This document shows positions 1-3,029 of a DNA stretch of 34,279 bases, in pieces (position 1 is the first letter of the stretch; every line of letters starts with the position of its first letter). The notes under the pieces were generated by a model. That model searched no databases and was not told the origin of the DNA. It saw nothing but the letters and a program-made list of their open reading frames with translations. Made by a program: the position numbers and the translations under genes. Location: contig JAFYPJ010000074.1 in the NCBI GenBank assembly GCA_017547545.1, positions 1 to 34,279 of the forward strand, in the 5' to 3' direction. This DNA comes from Clostridia bacterium. GTDB taxonomy: Bacteria; Bacillota; Clostridia; Oscillospirales; CAG-272.

Positions 1-125
1 TGAAGCGATGCTTTGCATCGTGAAGTGCCTACAGGCGTGGGTGGCACACTTAACTTCACTTCGTGCGTAAGTACGATACTTCACAGCGGCATCGCCGCTG
101 CTTCACTTGGCAAAGCCAAACTTTA
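1..125. repeat. Left hairpin array with TGAAG/CTTCA linkers
   Basis: Short hairpins are separated by a five-base linker. Perfect or near-perfect stems are 6-11/15-20 (loop TTT), 61-66/71-76 (loop GTAA, one G-T pair), 84-90/94-100 (loop ATC) and 107-111/115-119 (loop AAA). The linker is TGAAG at 1-5 and 21-25, then its reverse complement CTTCA at 54-58, 79-83 and 101-105, with a variant CTTTA at 121-125. The two halves therefore mirror each other around about position 45 and could pair into one multibranched structure. The array ends just before the promoter of the four-helix-bundle gene. The window starts on a linker, so the array may continue to the left. Confidence 0.85.
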
Positions 126-133
126 CTAAATAA

Positions 134-162
134 TTGCTAATTCACCGCATTTATGATACAAT
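134..162 (+). promoter_or_regulatory. Promoter of the four-helix-bundle gene
   Basis: TTGCTA (134-139), a 17-base spacer and TACAAT (157-162) resemble a sigma-70-type promoter. The predicted start lies about 17 bases before the GGAGGTG ribosome binding site at 174-180. It is the only good match between the left hairpin array and the gene. Confidence 0.55.
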
Positions 163-185
163 ATGATTGAATTGGAGGTGTCATT

Positions 186-536
186 ATGTCTGAAAGTAAA
201 TTAAGAACACAGCCTATGGATTTCGCAGTATCCATCATTAACCTTGTTAAATGTCTGAAGGAAAAACTCGAGTCTATCATCTCCAACCAAATCGGCAGAA
301 GCGGCACCTCTATCGGTGCAAATATCCGTGAAGCACAATATGCCCATGGAAAAGCTGACTTTATTTTGAAATTGCAAATTGCACTAAAGGAAGCAAACGA
401 AACTGGTTATTGGCTGGAATTGCTTTATAAAACAAATTACATCACCGAAGCAGAATATAAAACGCTCGATACTGCTTGCACAAGTATTCGCGTTATGCTT
501 ATCTCCTCCATCAACACCGCAAAGGAGAACAGATGA
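186..536 (+). CDS. Four-helix-bundle protein (S23/Avd-like family)
   Basis: 116 residues, all helical in character, with no signal peptide or membrane segment. The hallmark stretch of the family is clear: an NQIGRSGTSIGANIREA-type motif near residues 34-50, then ADF.LKLQIALKEANETGYWLELL near residues 57-80. Relatives are encoded in 23S rRNA intervening sequences and, as Avd, in diversity-generating retroelements, where a basic pentameric barrel binds RNA and the reverse transcriptase. Here no reverse transcriptase, template repeat or rRNA is nearby. The start is set by GGAGGTG five bases upstream. The stop overlaps the ATG of the next gene (ATGA), so the two should be translationally coupled. 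Hairpin arrays lie on both sides. A nucleic-acid-binding role is inference; the family call is firm. Confidence 0.88.
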   Translation: MSESKLRTQPMDFAVSIINLVKCLKEKLESIISNQIGRSGTSIGANIREAQYAHGKADFILKLQIALKEANETGYWLELLYKTNYITEAEYKTLDTACTSIRVMLISSINTAKENR

Positions 537-973
537 AAACTCTTTATACTGCGTTTAAAGGTAAGAATAACACATCATACCAATTAGTTACCGCAATAAA
601 CGGAGAATCATTACTTTTAACAAATTCTTTTCAAGGAATCGAGAGGGATATAGCAGATCTTTGTTCCAATTATGATGCAGTGGTTATGTTTGGTGTGGAT
701 AAAACCTTGGTGAACTGCATAAGAATTGAAGGTTGTGCTGAACACAACGGAGAAACCATCTACTCAATATACGACATTAAACTTATCGCACAAAAAGGTA
801 GTCAAGCAAAGATTACACATAATATATCTTATAATCCAACAAAATACTTTTGTAATTTTGCATATTGGCATATGCTGCATAAGGTTCCGAACACTGTTTT
901 CATACATATCCCTTCTATTGGAGGAATGACACCTGACTTTATGAATCTTCTTATAGATTTCTTTCGTGATTAG
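533..973 (+). CDS. Small protein resembling pyroglutamyl-peptidase I (C15), miniaturised
   Basis: 146 residues from the ATG at 533, chosen over an upstream in-frame ATG because AAAGGAG sits five bases before it and it overlaps the previous stop. Seen by eye: an N-terminal LYTAFKGKNNTSYQ motif, which lines up with the T-x-F...N-P-S motif of C15 peptidases; IRIEGCAEHN near 63-72, like the ERVAIN strand; a cysteine in TKYFCNFAYWHML (C107), like the TYVCN nucleophile motif; and a histidine in VFIHIP (H125), like GFIHVP. The family is normally about 200-215 residues, so this copy lacks about 60. Activity on pyroglutamyl peptides is not implied. Pairing with the four-helix-bundle gene suggests one functional unit. 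Homology is moderately sure, function unknown. Confidence 0.6.
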   Translation: MKTLYTAFKGKNNTSYQLVTAINGESLLLTNSFQGIERDIADLCSNYDAVVMFGVDKTLVNCIRIEGCAEHNGETIYSIYDIKLIAQKGSQAKITHNISYNPTKYFCNFAYWHMLHKVPNTVFIHIPSIGGMTPDFMNLLIDFFRD

Positions 974-978
974 CGATA

Positions 979-1024
979 ATTTACACTACTTTTGGTCGTT
1001 TTTACCCCTATTTACACTACTTTT
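979..1024. repeat. 15-base direct repeat pair
   Basis: ATTTACACTACTTTT occurs exactly at 979-993 and 1010-1024, with a 31-base period, between the stop of the C15-like gene and the right hairpin array. It could be a binding site pair or a remnant of element insertion. No promoter was recognised here. Confidence 0.7.
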
Positions 1025-1043
1025 ATTAGTCGCTCTTTTCAAC

Positions 1044-1145
1044 GAAATAAATCCCTCGCGGGATTTGTGAAATACGCTTGGCGTGTGAAATATTGCTTAG
1101 CAATGTGAAATGCGCTGCGGTGCGTGGGGATTTATTTCATTTCAC
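1044..1145. repeat. Right hairpin array with GTGAAAT linkers
   Basis: Four small hairpins follow each other: 1049-1055/1060-1066 (loop TCGC), 1074-1077/1081-1084 (loop TTG), 1092-1096/1100-1104 (loop TTA) and 1112-1115/1120-1123 (loop TGCG, one G-T pair). They are joined by identical GTGAAAT linkers at 1067-1073, 1085-1091 and 1105-1111. The reverse complement ATTTCAC closes the array at 1139-1145. An outer perfect inverted repeat, GAAATAAATCCC at 1044-1055 with its partner at 1127-1138, encloses everything. Its inner seven bases can pair with either 1060-1066 or 1127-1133, so two folds compete. The array shares TTCACTTG with the left array (102-109 and 1141-1148). Confidence 0.88.
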
Positions 1146-1161
1146 TTGATACATACATCAA
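1146..1161. promoter_or_regulatory. TTGAT-N6-ATCAA dyad upstream of the MBL/Crp operon
   Basis: Perfect five-base arms TTGAT (1146-1150) and ATCAA (1157-1161) stand directly before the AAAGGAA ribosome binding site. The arms match the FNR half-site, but the known FNR spacing is four, not six. The operon encodes a Crp/Fnr regulator, so autoregulation is possible. The position, 21 bases before the start codon, would suit repression more than activation. Confidence 0.35.
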
Positions 1162-1182
1162 TATCTTAAAGGAACCGCAAAA

Positions 1183-1959
1183 ATGAAAATTACTGTACTT
1201 ACCGAAAATACATCAATAAATGAAAATATAGGATGTGAGCACGGTCTTTGTTTATATATTGAAACAGAGAACAAAAAAATTCTTTTTGATATGGGAGAAA
1301 CCGATATTTTTTATGAAAATGCAAAAGTTTTGGGGATAGATCTATCCAAGGTTGACCTTGCAGTTCTTTCCCATGCTCATTGCGATCATACGGGGGGACT
1401 CGGAAAATTTCTTGAGGTGAATAACAAGGCTTTTGTATATGCAAACCAAAATGCAAAAGGTGACCAATACGGACATGAGGGTGTTTATATAGGTATTGAT
1501 GCTGAATTGAAAAGTAATGGGCGCATTATATATACCAATGATACTTTTGAAATAGAAAAGGGACTTACCCTTTATTCATGCAATGAGAAGAAAAGAGAAT
1601 ATGAGTTTGGTTCCTTTGGTCTTTGCGAAAGAATCGGGGAAGAAATTCTGCCGGACAGATTTTTGCACGAACAATACCTTTTGATTAAAGAAAAGGATAA
1701 AAAAGTGCTTATAAGCGGCTGTTCCCATAAGGGAATATTAAACATTGCCTCATGGTTTGATGTGGATTTTATAGTTGGCGGATTTCATTTTATGCATGTT
1801 GAACCGGGCGAGATTTTAAAAGGTTATGCAAAACATCTCGGTGAAAAGAAAACCAAGTTTTTAACCTGTCATTGTACGGGTATTGAACAATTTGAATTTA
1901 TGAAAAAATATGCGGAAAATATTCGATATATCAGGGCGGGAGAAAGGCTTGAGATATGA
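1183..1959 (+). CDS. MBL-fold metallohydrolase (COG1237-like)
   Basis: 258 residues. The metal-binding signature HAHCDHTGG is at residues 64-72 (H64, H66, D68, H69). Further candidate ligand histidines occur in SGCSHKG and near GGFHFMH, and LTCHCTG near the C-terminus resembles the end motif of the group related to methyltetrahydromethanopterin/RFA-P-synthase-like MBL proteins (COG1237). No signal peptide, so cytoplasmic. The substrate cannot be told. AAAGGAA lies eight bases before the ATG. The stop overlaps the start of the Crp/Fnr gene (ATGA at 1956-1959), so the two are one operon. A hairpin array and a dyad lie immediately upstream. Confidence 0.85.
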   Translation: MKITVLTENTSINENIGCEHGLCLYIETENKKILFDMGETDIFYENAKVLGIDLSKVDLAVLSHAHCDHTGGLGKFLEVNNKAFVYANQNAKGDQYGHEGVYIGIDAELKSNGRIIYTNDTFEIEKGLTLYSCNEKKREYEFGSFGLCERIGEEILPDRFLHEQYLLIKEKDKKVLISGCSHKGILNIASWFDVDFIVGGFHFMHVEPGEILKGYAKHLGEKKTKFLTCHCTGIEQFEFMKKYAENIRYIRAGERLEI

Positions 1960-2624
1960 GTAACAGAGAAGATATTTTTAAAACAACTTTTCCTTTCTGG
2001 AAGGATATAGGTGAAGAAAAACAACGCTTTATTTCAGAAAACACCTTTTCTGTTTCCTATAAAAAGGGCACAAATGTTCATGATGCACAGGGTTGTTCCG
2101 GGGTGTTTATAGTTCTGTCCGGATGCCTTCGCATCTATATTATGAGCGAGGAAGGGAAGGATATTACCCTTTACCGTTTGCATAAGGGGGAAATGTGCAT
2201 GCTCTCTGCCTCCTGTGTTATTCAGAGTATCACCTTTGATGTGTTTATAGATGCAGAAGAGGACAGCGAATGCTGTGTTATAGACGGAATGGCTTTTTCG
2301 CAACTCAGCGAAAGCGATCCTGCGGTTAAGATCTTTGCTCTTGAAACAGCTGTAAGCCGCTTTTCGGATGTTATGTGGGTAATGCAGCAGATACTTTTTA
2401 TGAGTATGGATAAACGCCTCGCCATATTCTTATATGACGAGGCGTTGAGAACATCTTGCGATACCGTTGTTCTTACCCATGAGCAGATTGCCAAATATAT
2501 GGGTTCTGCCCGTGAGGTGGTTTCCCGTATGCTTAAATATTTTTCAAATGAAGGTATAGTTGAGGTATCCCGTAAGGGGATCAAAATACTTGATAAAAAG
2601 AAGCTTCGCAATTTAGCCTTCTAA
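1956..2624 (+). CDS. Crp/Fnr family transcriptional regulator
   Basis: 222 residues. The N-terminal cyclic-nucleotide-type beta-barrel covers about residues 25-115 (GVFIVLSGCLRIY, then YRLHKGEMCMLSASC), followed by a long dimerisation helix and a winged HTH at about 173-205 (LTHEQIAKYMGSAREVVSRM). Cysteines C81 and C87 sit in the GEMCML...C motif common in redox- or heme-responsive members from anaerobes, but the N-terminal Fe-S cysteine cluster of classical FNR is absent. It overlaps the MBL gene by four bases and runs convergently into thioredoxin, with a 12-base overlap of coding ends. A CRP-like palindrome at the thioredoxin promoter is a plausible target. Confidence 0.9.
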   Translation: MSNREDIFKTTFPFWKDIGEEKQRFISENTFSVSYKKGTNVHDAQGCSGVFIVLSGCLRIYIMSEEGKDITLYRLHKGEMCMLSASCVIQSITFDVFIDAEEDSECCVIDGMAFSQLSESDPAVKIFALETAVSRFSDVMWVMQQILFMSMDKRLAIFLYDEALRTSCDTVVLTHEQIAKYMGSAREVVSRMLKYFSNEGIVEVSRKGIKILDKKKLRNLAF

Positions 2625-2921
2625 AAGCTTCAGTATTTGTGCCTTGGGACGGGCGCCGGGTGCCTTGTTTACGATCTCTCCGTTTTTAAGAACAACAAGA
2701 AGGGGAATACTGAACACACCAAACTGCTGTGCAAGCTCAGGCTCATTATCTACATTGATCTTTCCAACGATATATTCGGGATGCTCTTCGGCAATTTCTT
2801 CAATTGCGGGAGCTATCATACGGCAGGGACCGCACCAATCTGCATAGAAATCAAGGAGTATGGGTTTATCACTTTGCTTTATTTCTTCGAATAATTCTTT
2901 GTTTATATGAAGTAATGACAT
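2613..2921 (-). CDS. trxA: Thioredoxin
   Basis: 102 residues, the normal length for thioredoxin. The redox motif WCGPC is at 29-33 and the cis-proline lies in FSIP at residue 73. It is a cytoplasmic protein-disulfide reductase. AAAGGAGA lies about seven bases before the ATG. The stop codon overlaps the end of the convergent Crp/Fnr gene. A promoter with a good -10 but no -35 and a CRP-type palindrome lies upstream, which suggests activator control. No thioredoxin reductase gene is present in this window. Confidence 0.95.
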   Translation of the reverse strand: MSLLHINKELFEEIKQSDKPILLDFYADWCGPCRMIAPAIEEIAEEHPEYIVGKINVDNEPELAQQFGVFSIPLLVVLKNGEIVNKAPGARPKAQILKLLEG

Positions 2922-2955
2922 CTTTATGTCTCCTTTCTTTTTCTTTTGTAGTTAT

Positions 2956-2997
2956 ATTATAACCTATTTTTTGAAAAAATACTGTGACAAAGTCACA
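2956..2997 (-). promoter_or_regulatory. trxA promoter with CRP/FNR-like operator
   Basis: Reading the minus strand, a TATAAT box occupies 2961-2956. Seventeen bases upstream there is only CAGTAT, a poor -35. In its place is the perfect palindrome TGTGACAAAGTCACA (2983-2997), with arms identical to the CRP half-site TGTGA. Its centre, 2990, is about 41 bases upstream of the predicted start near 2949, the usual class II activator position. Spacing between arms is five rather than the canonical six. Confidence 0.6.
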
Positions 2998-3029
2998 AAA
3001 GCTCCGCTTTGCGGAGCTTTTTATTTTTT
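2997..3029 (+). terminator. Terminator, stronger on the plus strand
   Basis: AAAAGCTCCGC (2997-3007), loop TTT and GCGGAGCTTTT (3011-3021) form an 11-bp stem. On the plus strand it is followed by TATTTTTT. On the minus strand the trailing T-run is only four bases, so it is weaker for araD transcripts arriving from the right. On the plus strand it would end read-through from the MBL/Crp operon after crossing trxA in antisense. Confidence 0.75.

Follow-up and report, generated by a model that had tools for sequence, protein, structure and literature searches.

The first 1,161 positions of the window (the whole stretch of 34,279 nucleotides analysed here) hold two overlapping genes, one for a four-helix-bundle protein and one for a protein weakly resembling C15 peptidases, together with two hairpin arrays. 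They raise the question of whether these parts form one element and, if so, where it begins and ends and what kind of element it is. We find that positions 1–1,038, joined to a start that lies on another contig, are probably a single copy of a small mobile cassette whose insertion is site-specific and falls directly behind the CCA end of tRNA genes. Such cassettes look like residents of gut and rumen Clostridia that carry a gene of the IVP/S23 family (IVP below) and an exchangeable cargo gene and encode no recombinase. The central idea of an earlier note on this DNA, that arrays and four-helix-bundle gene belong together in a mobile unit, stands; the boundaries that it gave to the unit differ from those found here.

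The unit at the start of the window

The arrays were located with a linker-repeat detector (at least four copies of a 6-mer on either strand, spaced 8–40 nt) that was designed after the first examples had been seen. As the earlier note had described around the gene pair, it finds exactly two arrays in the 34,279-base window, at 20–106 (CTTCAC, -+++) and 1,067–1,145 (GTGAAA, +++-); with five copies required it finds none there. Both arrays fold better than shuffled sequence, with z values of -3.7 (1–119) and -4.7 (1,040–1,147) against -1.0 for a coding control. Array 2 is a member of the Gut-1 RNA family (RF01706; 71.3 bits, cut-off 50), and array 1 bears a weak resemblance to it on the minus strand (25.9 bits, below the same cut-off). 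The sequence TTCACTTG, previously taken as a shared array end, does terminate both arrays, but it is the linker plus TTG. Array 2 begins past the right end and hence outside the window's unit, so the gene pair is not bracketed by its own two arrays. It follows the right end directly, most of a terminator is missing before it, and it may belong to an older unit next to this one, as its first half without a full terminator. The features are collected in Table 1.

Table 1. Features of the cassette copy and of the array that follows it, in window coordinates
Feature	Position	Strand	Basis or remark
Array 1, the 3' portion of the hairpin array of the unit (linker GTGAAG / CTTCAC)	1–119	+	start, terminator and tRNA-Met(cat) on contig C132
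Probable promoter TTGCTA - 17 nt - TACAAT in the gap between array and IVP gene	134–162	+	sequence
Probable ribosome-binding site GGAGG of the IVP gene	174–178	+	sequence
IVP/S23 gene, four-helix-bundle protein of the 23S rRNA intervening-sequence family, 116 aa	186–536	+	PF05635, TIGR02436
Probable ribosome-binding site AAAGGAG of the cargo gene, within the C-terminal codons of IVP	521–527	+	sequence
Cargo gene, 146 aa, weakly pyroglutamyl peptidase (C15)-like	533–973	+	retains the Cys and His blocks; by eye also the cargo of L079 and L088
Right end, conserved motif of two similar half-units, final GCA absent here	976–1,038	+	right-end model
Array 2, Gut-1 RNA (RF01706) plus following linker	1,040–1,147	+	covariance model

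Array 1 is incomplete in the window because the window begins at a contig end, the start of contig C64 in a draft genome of 2.03 Mb (147 contigs, 80% complete). Its first 36 bases are the last 36 of contig C132, and a search of the whole genome with up to three mismatches allowed found no third place matching this overlap. At the end of contig C132 stand tRNA-Met(cat), a terminator and the initial part of a hairpin array. Judged by the 36-base overlap, it likely precedes the window directly, which would give the order tRNA, terminator, array 1, promoter, IVP gene, C15-like gene, right end and array 2.

The IVP protein belongs to both PF05635 (4.9e-26, 91.5 bits, cut-off 33.8) and TIGR02436 (4.7e-30, 104 bits, cut-off 24), and its relatives in the PDB are 2rld and 2gsc, with five chains listed for each. 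Its gene overlaps the cargo gene by 4 bases, and at several further loci the cargo likewise starts near the IVP stop. The 146-aa cargo protein matches C15 weakly (E 0.033, 14.6 bits, below the Pfam cut-off of 22.7) and Peptidase_C34 slightly better, likewise below cut-off (E 0.0097); against the pyroglutamyl peptidase 6ltq_A (E 0.018) the Cys (YFCN/YICN) and His (FIHIP/FVHLP) blocks are aligned. The earlier note counted this gene with the four-helix-bundle gene in a single candidate element. By eye it is present at only three of the 37 IVP loci of the genus, namely the window, L079 (in two frames) and L088, and we rejected it as part of the core, since many different cargoes occur in its place. 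Whether the pair keeps its arrays in close relatives has a mixed answer, since at L079 IVP and C15-like genes follow a tRNA with no array visible to the detector, and L088 begins within the IVP gene, where an upstream array is not assessable. Neither of these two window proteins has a match in PADLOC that would support the defence unit suggested before. When eight further cargo proteins were compared with PADLOC, two matched, at L152 (several models, best 5.4e-11) and at L104 (0.006).

Insertion sites, ends and cargo in other genomes

At the level of sequence comparison, we show a tRNA target, a conserved right end, sites free of the unit, tandem units and exchange of cargo. Every source was one draft genome per species, and none showed an excision or a circular form. 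Within the genus, six genomes yielded 37 IVP matches and at least 150 Gut-1 matches, the latter grouped into 112 clusters. Among the matches listed, 11 of the 112 clusters have an IVP gene no more than 300 bp away, compared with 0.26 expected; this is the enrichment of hairpin arrays at four-helix-bundle genes that the earlier note had proposed to look for. All 11 are upstream of the IVP gene, nine of them at 41–63 bp, and 99 of the 112 have no IVP gene within 1.5 kb, both counts again among the matches listed.

Outside the genus we used the best 80 of 567 relatives, a sample biased to close ones, of which 77 had enough sequence. At 54 of these 77 loci, drawn from the best 80 of 567, the IVP gene has an array in the 300 bp before it; the background was 24 arrays per 302,819 bp. 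Altogether, an upstream array was detected at 77 of 116 distinct IVP loci and not at the other 39, and a same-strand tRNA within 450 bp upstream at 61 of 116 (background 3 of 1,254 positions), with 26 anticodon types represented and a close tRNA missing at 55; array and tRNA are both present at 43. The loci L073 and L191 are the same in sequence and count once among the 116 loci, in the linker coupling and in the 42 junctions below, and both were kept in the left-side comparison, the terminator-copy, right-end and inverted-arm sets and the 167-pair counts; L280 and L293 are L267 and L266 again. Full arrays carry linkers in one sense followed by the same linkers reversed (----++++), with a word that differs between loci. 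A promoter with at most two mismatches to the consensus lies between array and IVP gene at 25 of the 43 loci with tRNA and array, versus 2% of single-base shuffles. At one locus (L101, 1,372–2,357) tRNA-Trp is followed by a tandem of four alternating arrays that use two linker words and include a near-exact duplication.

On the left side, the order past the CCA in 15 loci read is a few bases, a symmetrical terminator and the array. An A-run begins within 4 bases of the CCA at 41 of 42 distinct junctions of tRNA and array, the exception being L170. Units at different tRNAs can be alike from exactly this point: L154 (tRNA-Gln) and L161 (tRNA-Lys) are 99% identical starting at the CCA, and homology between L021 and L022 likewise starts there. 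Among 167 related pairs at different tRNAs, homology extends to the tRNA end in 73, some of which may be helped there by the conserved T-arm, begins only past the terminator in 79, and the remaining 15 are mixed; for pairs with at least 85% identity the numbers are 11, 6 and 2. The terminator therefore often travels with the unit and often differs too. A downstream terminator copy that beats all controls was found at six of 56 loci. These comparisons show in part that the terminator belongs to the unit, being common to only about half of the related pairs.

The right end is a motif of about 60 nt after the cargo, made of two similar half-units ending in GCA and mostly abutting another terminator. 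A model built from 10 seeds, after the first examples had been seen, gave 18 matches below 1e-4, eight of which were not seeds, with the next best at 0.83. When 20 loci of the family were added, there were 41 matches in 864,420 bp, none of them on the minus strand, some of the underlying loci having been retrieved by the right-end motif. Thirty-two of the 41 finish in GCA, two more do so within two bases and seven are without GCA; an A-run follows within 6 bases at 32 of 41. The right end is present in 19 of 59 genomes of the family. A compact, uniform layout with the same right end recurs in many genera, a comparison in which part of the loci had likewise been retrieved by that motif. A search of viral contigs with three exact patterns of right-end words gave 0 matches for each.

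The earlier suggestion of a mobile unit with empty sites in relatives is supported. In one species the CCA of tRNA-Thr(cgt) is followed by a terminator, an array and a broken IVP gene, in four others by a plain terminator; the likeness to these four spans the tRNA and stops 13–42 bases beyond it. At tRNA-Leu(caa), one IVP unit, one terminator and array followed by another gene, and one plain site were found. The three species compared at tRNA-Met(cat) differ past the tRNA, with likeness stopping 7–8 bases beyond. Tandem units occur at L149, L259 and L263, separated by right end, terminator and array. Their cargo is of many kinds (GNAT, deaminase, methyltransferase, hydrolase, MazG, nucleotidyltransferase, DUF4279 and DUF3885), and 11 of the 20 cargo ORFs scanned against Pfam, out of 38, gave no hit at the thresholds applied. 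One type of cargo can be found with different linker words. At L249 the cargo is retained and the IVP gene is reduced to its last codons (by eye). Two back-to-back Gut-1 halves lie on the 3' side of the IVP gene at L022, after a MazG-like cargo and before a gene named NUDIX-like by eye.

A second class of IVP elements lies outside tRNA loci. In L072 and L068 the IVP gene sits within a split array, in the order left arm, TTAAGGA, hairpin, IVP gene, hairpin, TCCTTAA and right arm; other members of this class have plainer repeat arms. Relatives without the split-array element were found at the DJ-1, ProA, dCMP deaminase and DapA neighbourhoods, so empty sites exist for this class also; not all of them are clean, L118 and L122 having other short repeats and L133 a short gene-less copy. 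Inverted arms, defined as a 7-mer occurring at least three times in inverted sense, were found at 11 of 106 loci, some of which are orthologues, compared with one of 843 control pairs. No paired inverted arms were found around the window's own unit. The IVP genes of L080, L062 and L067 likewise lie away from tRNA loci, between inverted arrays or runs of short tandem repeats. In Flavobacterium (L213) and Bacteroidaceae (L216), inverted arms seen by eye accompany the same protein family with a different kind of end.

Array structure, linker words and the possible role of the IVP protein

Comparing sequences, we also show compensatory changes in the structure of the array and a coupling between IVP type and linker word. 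In an alignment of nine terminator-arrays, read without a shuffle control, 21 of 55 predicted pairs show a compensatory change. By our own division of the pairs, the terminator has nine of 16 such pairs and the array 12 of 39, and none is among the array's linker pairs in these nine sequences. The nearest IVP relative has the same linker family in 62 of 70 cases (shuffles: mean 11.3, maximum 25), with families drawn by hand and seven loci with unclassified linkers left out, and in 52 of 70 the linker family is still the same when the nearest relative is less than 75% identical. The coupling is consistent with an IVP protein that recognises its array; plain co-inheritance could also suffice.

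Taken together, these features suggest a cassette that consists of a rho-independent terminator, a palindromic hairpin comb with a single linker (Gut-1 kind), a promoter, the IVP gene, the cargo and the right end of about 60 nt. The IVP protein may bind the array, and the cargo would be translated via the ribosome-binding site within the IVP end. The newest copies would land beside the tRNA and displace older ones outward, with a recombinase supplied in trans, for which a large serine recombinase is the first candidate. We favour a role of the array mainly as folded DNA because it sits between terminator and promoter, where little transcription is expected.

That last point bears directly on another explanation, according to which array and IVP protein form a ribonucleoprotein: the array would be transcribed as the Gut-1 non-coding RNA and bound by the IVP protein in the manner of Avd in diversity-generating retroelements. 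The compensatory changes in the array agree with this. PF05635 has been linked to Avd (PMC10053308, in the part of the source available), and Gut-1, which the accessible part of its 2010 description gives as confined to the human gut, was published there among the motifs most likely to be expressed as non-coding RNAs (Weinberg et al. 2010, PMC2864571). The position of the tRNA-class array between the terminator and the IVP promoter makes the ribonucleoprotein rather unlikely in our judgement.

Known systems and candidate recombinases

Array 2 of the window is alike to Gut-1 RNA and array 1 weakly so. The accessible text of PMC2864571 treats Gut-1 as a stand-alone probable non-coding RNA and does not mention IVP genes, tRNA ends or mobility. 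The intervening sequences of 23S rRNA share with the cassettes the protein family, the small size and the sporadic spread, and inverted arms comparable to their complementary ends occur at some loci of the non-tRNA class described above; the Coxiella intervening sequence has been described as a selfish element with terminal inverted repeats, whose ORF in theory served mobility (PMC4990558 for all of these, as far as its available text goes). In contrast, the target of the cassette is a tRNA CCA or intergenic, and it has arrays, promoter and cargo. Nor does the window's unit lie in 23S rRNA: an Rfam scan of window positions 1–3,000 lists Gut-1 only, and the unit is flanked by protein genes and, going by the contig overlap, by a tRNA. 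The unit also departs from diversity-generating retroelements, as only the IVP and C15-like genes lie between array 1 and right end.

RAYT transposases pair with palindromic REP sequences, which also occur as dispersed solo copies. The cassettes are similar in that palindromic repeats are tied to a protein gene and solo copies are dispersed; they are unlike REP/RAYT in their ends and target, and IVP is not an HUH transposase. The window's unit encodes only IVP and cargo, with no integrase and no RAYT-type/HUH (Y1) transposase. The RAYT-like arrangement proposed before thus falls away, and we rejected a RAYT/REP-type unit for want of a transposase in the element.

Integron cassettes place small genes in tandem at a fixed anchor, with the recombinase outside the cassette and structured DNA between the genes. 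The cassettes described here resemble them in their tandem units, diverse small cargo, fixed anchor, lack of a recombinase of their own and structured intergenic DNA, and differ in that the anchor is a tRNA 3' end and that the units have their own promoter and terminator. A wider reading, which we put forward tentatively and with less than even confidence, is that of an integron-like platform for gene capture on tRNA genes. The CCA of any tRNA would be a docking site, each cassette would bring a terminator and a folded hairpin comb recognised by its own IVP protein, a recombinase acting in trans would insert new cassettes beside the tRNA, and the intervening sequences of 23S rRNA would be one offshoot of the same mobile family built from IVP and inverted arrays. 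The available portions of the open-licence PMC literature (including PMC10910872) yielded no earlier description of tRNA cassettes with IVP genes and arrays, and the tRNA-end cassette seems to represent a type of element not described before. It would give both a place and a possible purpose to two orphans, Gut-1 RNA, a motif known since 2010, and the IVP/S23 family, whose role in mobility has been a guess. It would also indicate that gut and rumen Clostridia have a system of gene capture, with small cargo genes gathering at the ends of tRNAs, and it makes the recognition of structured DNA by IVP proteins testable.

As to the enzyme, a large serine recombinase gene lies directly before two cassettes (L266 and L267). 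Of 66 matches to it, 30 homologues were read; 17 of these 30 elements end in GTTCGGAT...CCA, 16 of the 17 with exactly 18 bases between. Past GTTCGGAT-N18-CCA the flanks are unrelated, and by eye four have the start of a terminator-array right there, two of the four being those from which the search had started. Three genomes, each from a different genus, carry a tRNA-Leu(tag) 9–10 kb before the recombinase, with a 3' tail that differs among the three and nearly the same sequence after the CCA (by eye). At L280, L281 and L283 (upstream L327, L310–L311 and L312–L313) we observed a large-serine-recombinase element of about 10 kb, apparently at the CCA of tRNA-Leu(tag), with the words GTTCGGAT/ATCCGAAC near both ends. 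About 130 bp after the recombinase end, L290 has a fragment resembling a tRNA 3' end (GGTTCAGATTCCC...CACCA), maybe a leftover of repeated insertions. The serine recombinase element thus appears to use the tRNA CCA, the same point as the cassettes, but unlike them it is about 10 kb long, encodes its own recombinase and ends in GTTCGGAT-N18-CCA, which differs from the cassette right end. It was found in nine of 19 genomes with a right end versus 10 of 40 others, assuming that all 59 genomes were in both draws, and in the genome of the window nothing matched it at 1e-60. The large serine recombinase is a candidate for the cassette enzyme, sharing the tRNA point and differing in its ends.

Since tRNA 3' ends are the classic targets of genomic islands, the cassettes might instead be remnants of tRNA-integrating islands that lost their integrases independently, or be moved by a tyrosine integrase such as that in L206. 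A location at a tRNA 3' end holds for the element class and, via the contig overlap, for the window's copy; the serine-recombinase element uses the same tRNA point, and the tyrosine integrase gene of L206 stops some 140 bp short of a strong right end. The window's unit, however, encodes no integrase, and the uniform compact layout and common right end across many genera argue against repeated independent loss. The integrase homologues L328 and L330 have no right end after the gene, and L329 ends too early to judge. With two of three homologues lacking it, the case for the L206 integrase as the cassette enzyme is weakened, and we consider an origin from islands or by this integrase improbable. 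L206 (1–1,288) and L328–L330 have in common a 3' tail that ends near GATAAATTTCAATTTATCG and is followed by unrelated flanks.

Least probable of all, and in our view very unlikely, is that the arrays are independent REP-like repeats favouring terminators or gene ends, with IVP genes adjacent by chance: the 99 of 112 clusters away from IVP genes (among the matches listed) fit such repeats, as do the 20 of these 99 solo Gut-1 places that were read, six with a tRNA within about 70 bp and most others with none in the stretch examined, but the constant upstream position of the 11 near clusters and the similar spacing of nine of them, the tracking of linker word by IVP type, the units of array and IVP gene common to different tRNAs and the split arrays around IVP genes, with element-free sites elsewhere, all argue against it.

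Among the solo Gut-1 places, gene-less copies seem to exist, judged by eye. Short gene-less versions of the split array, MITE-like in form, were observed at L105, L112 and L133.
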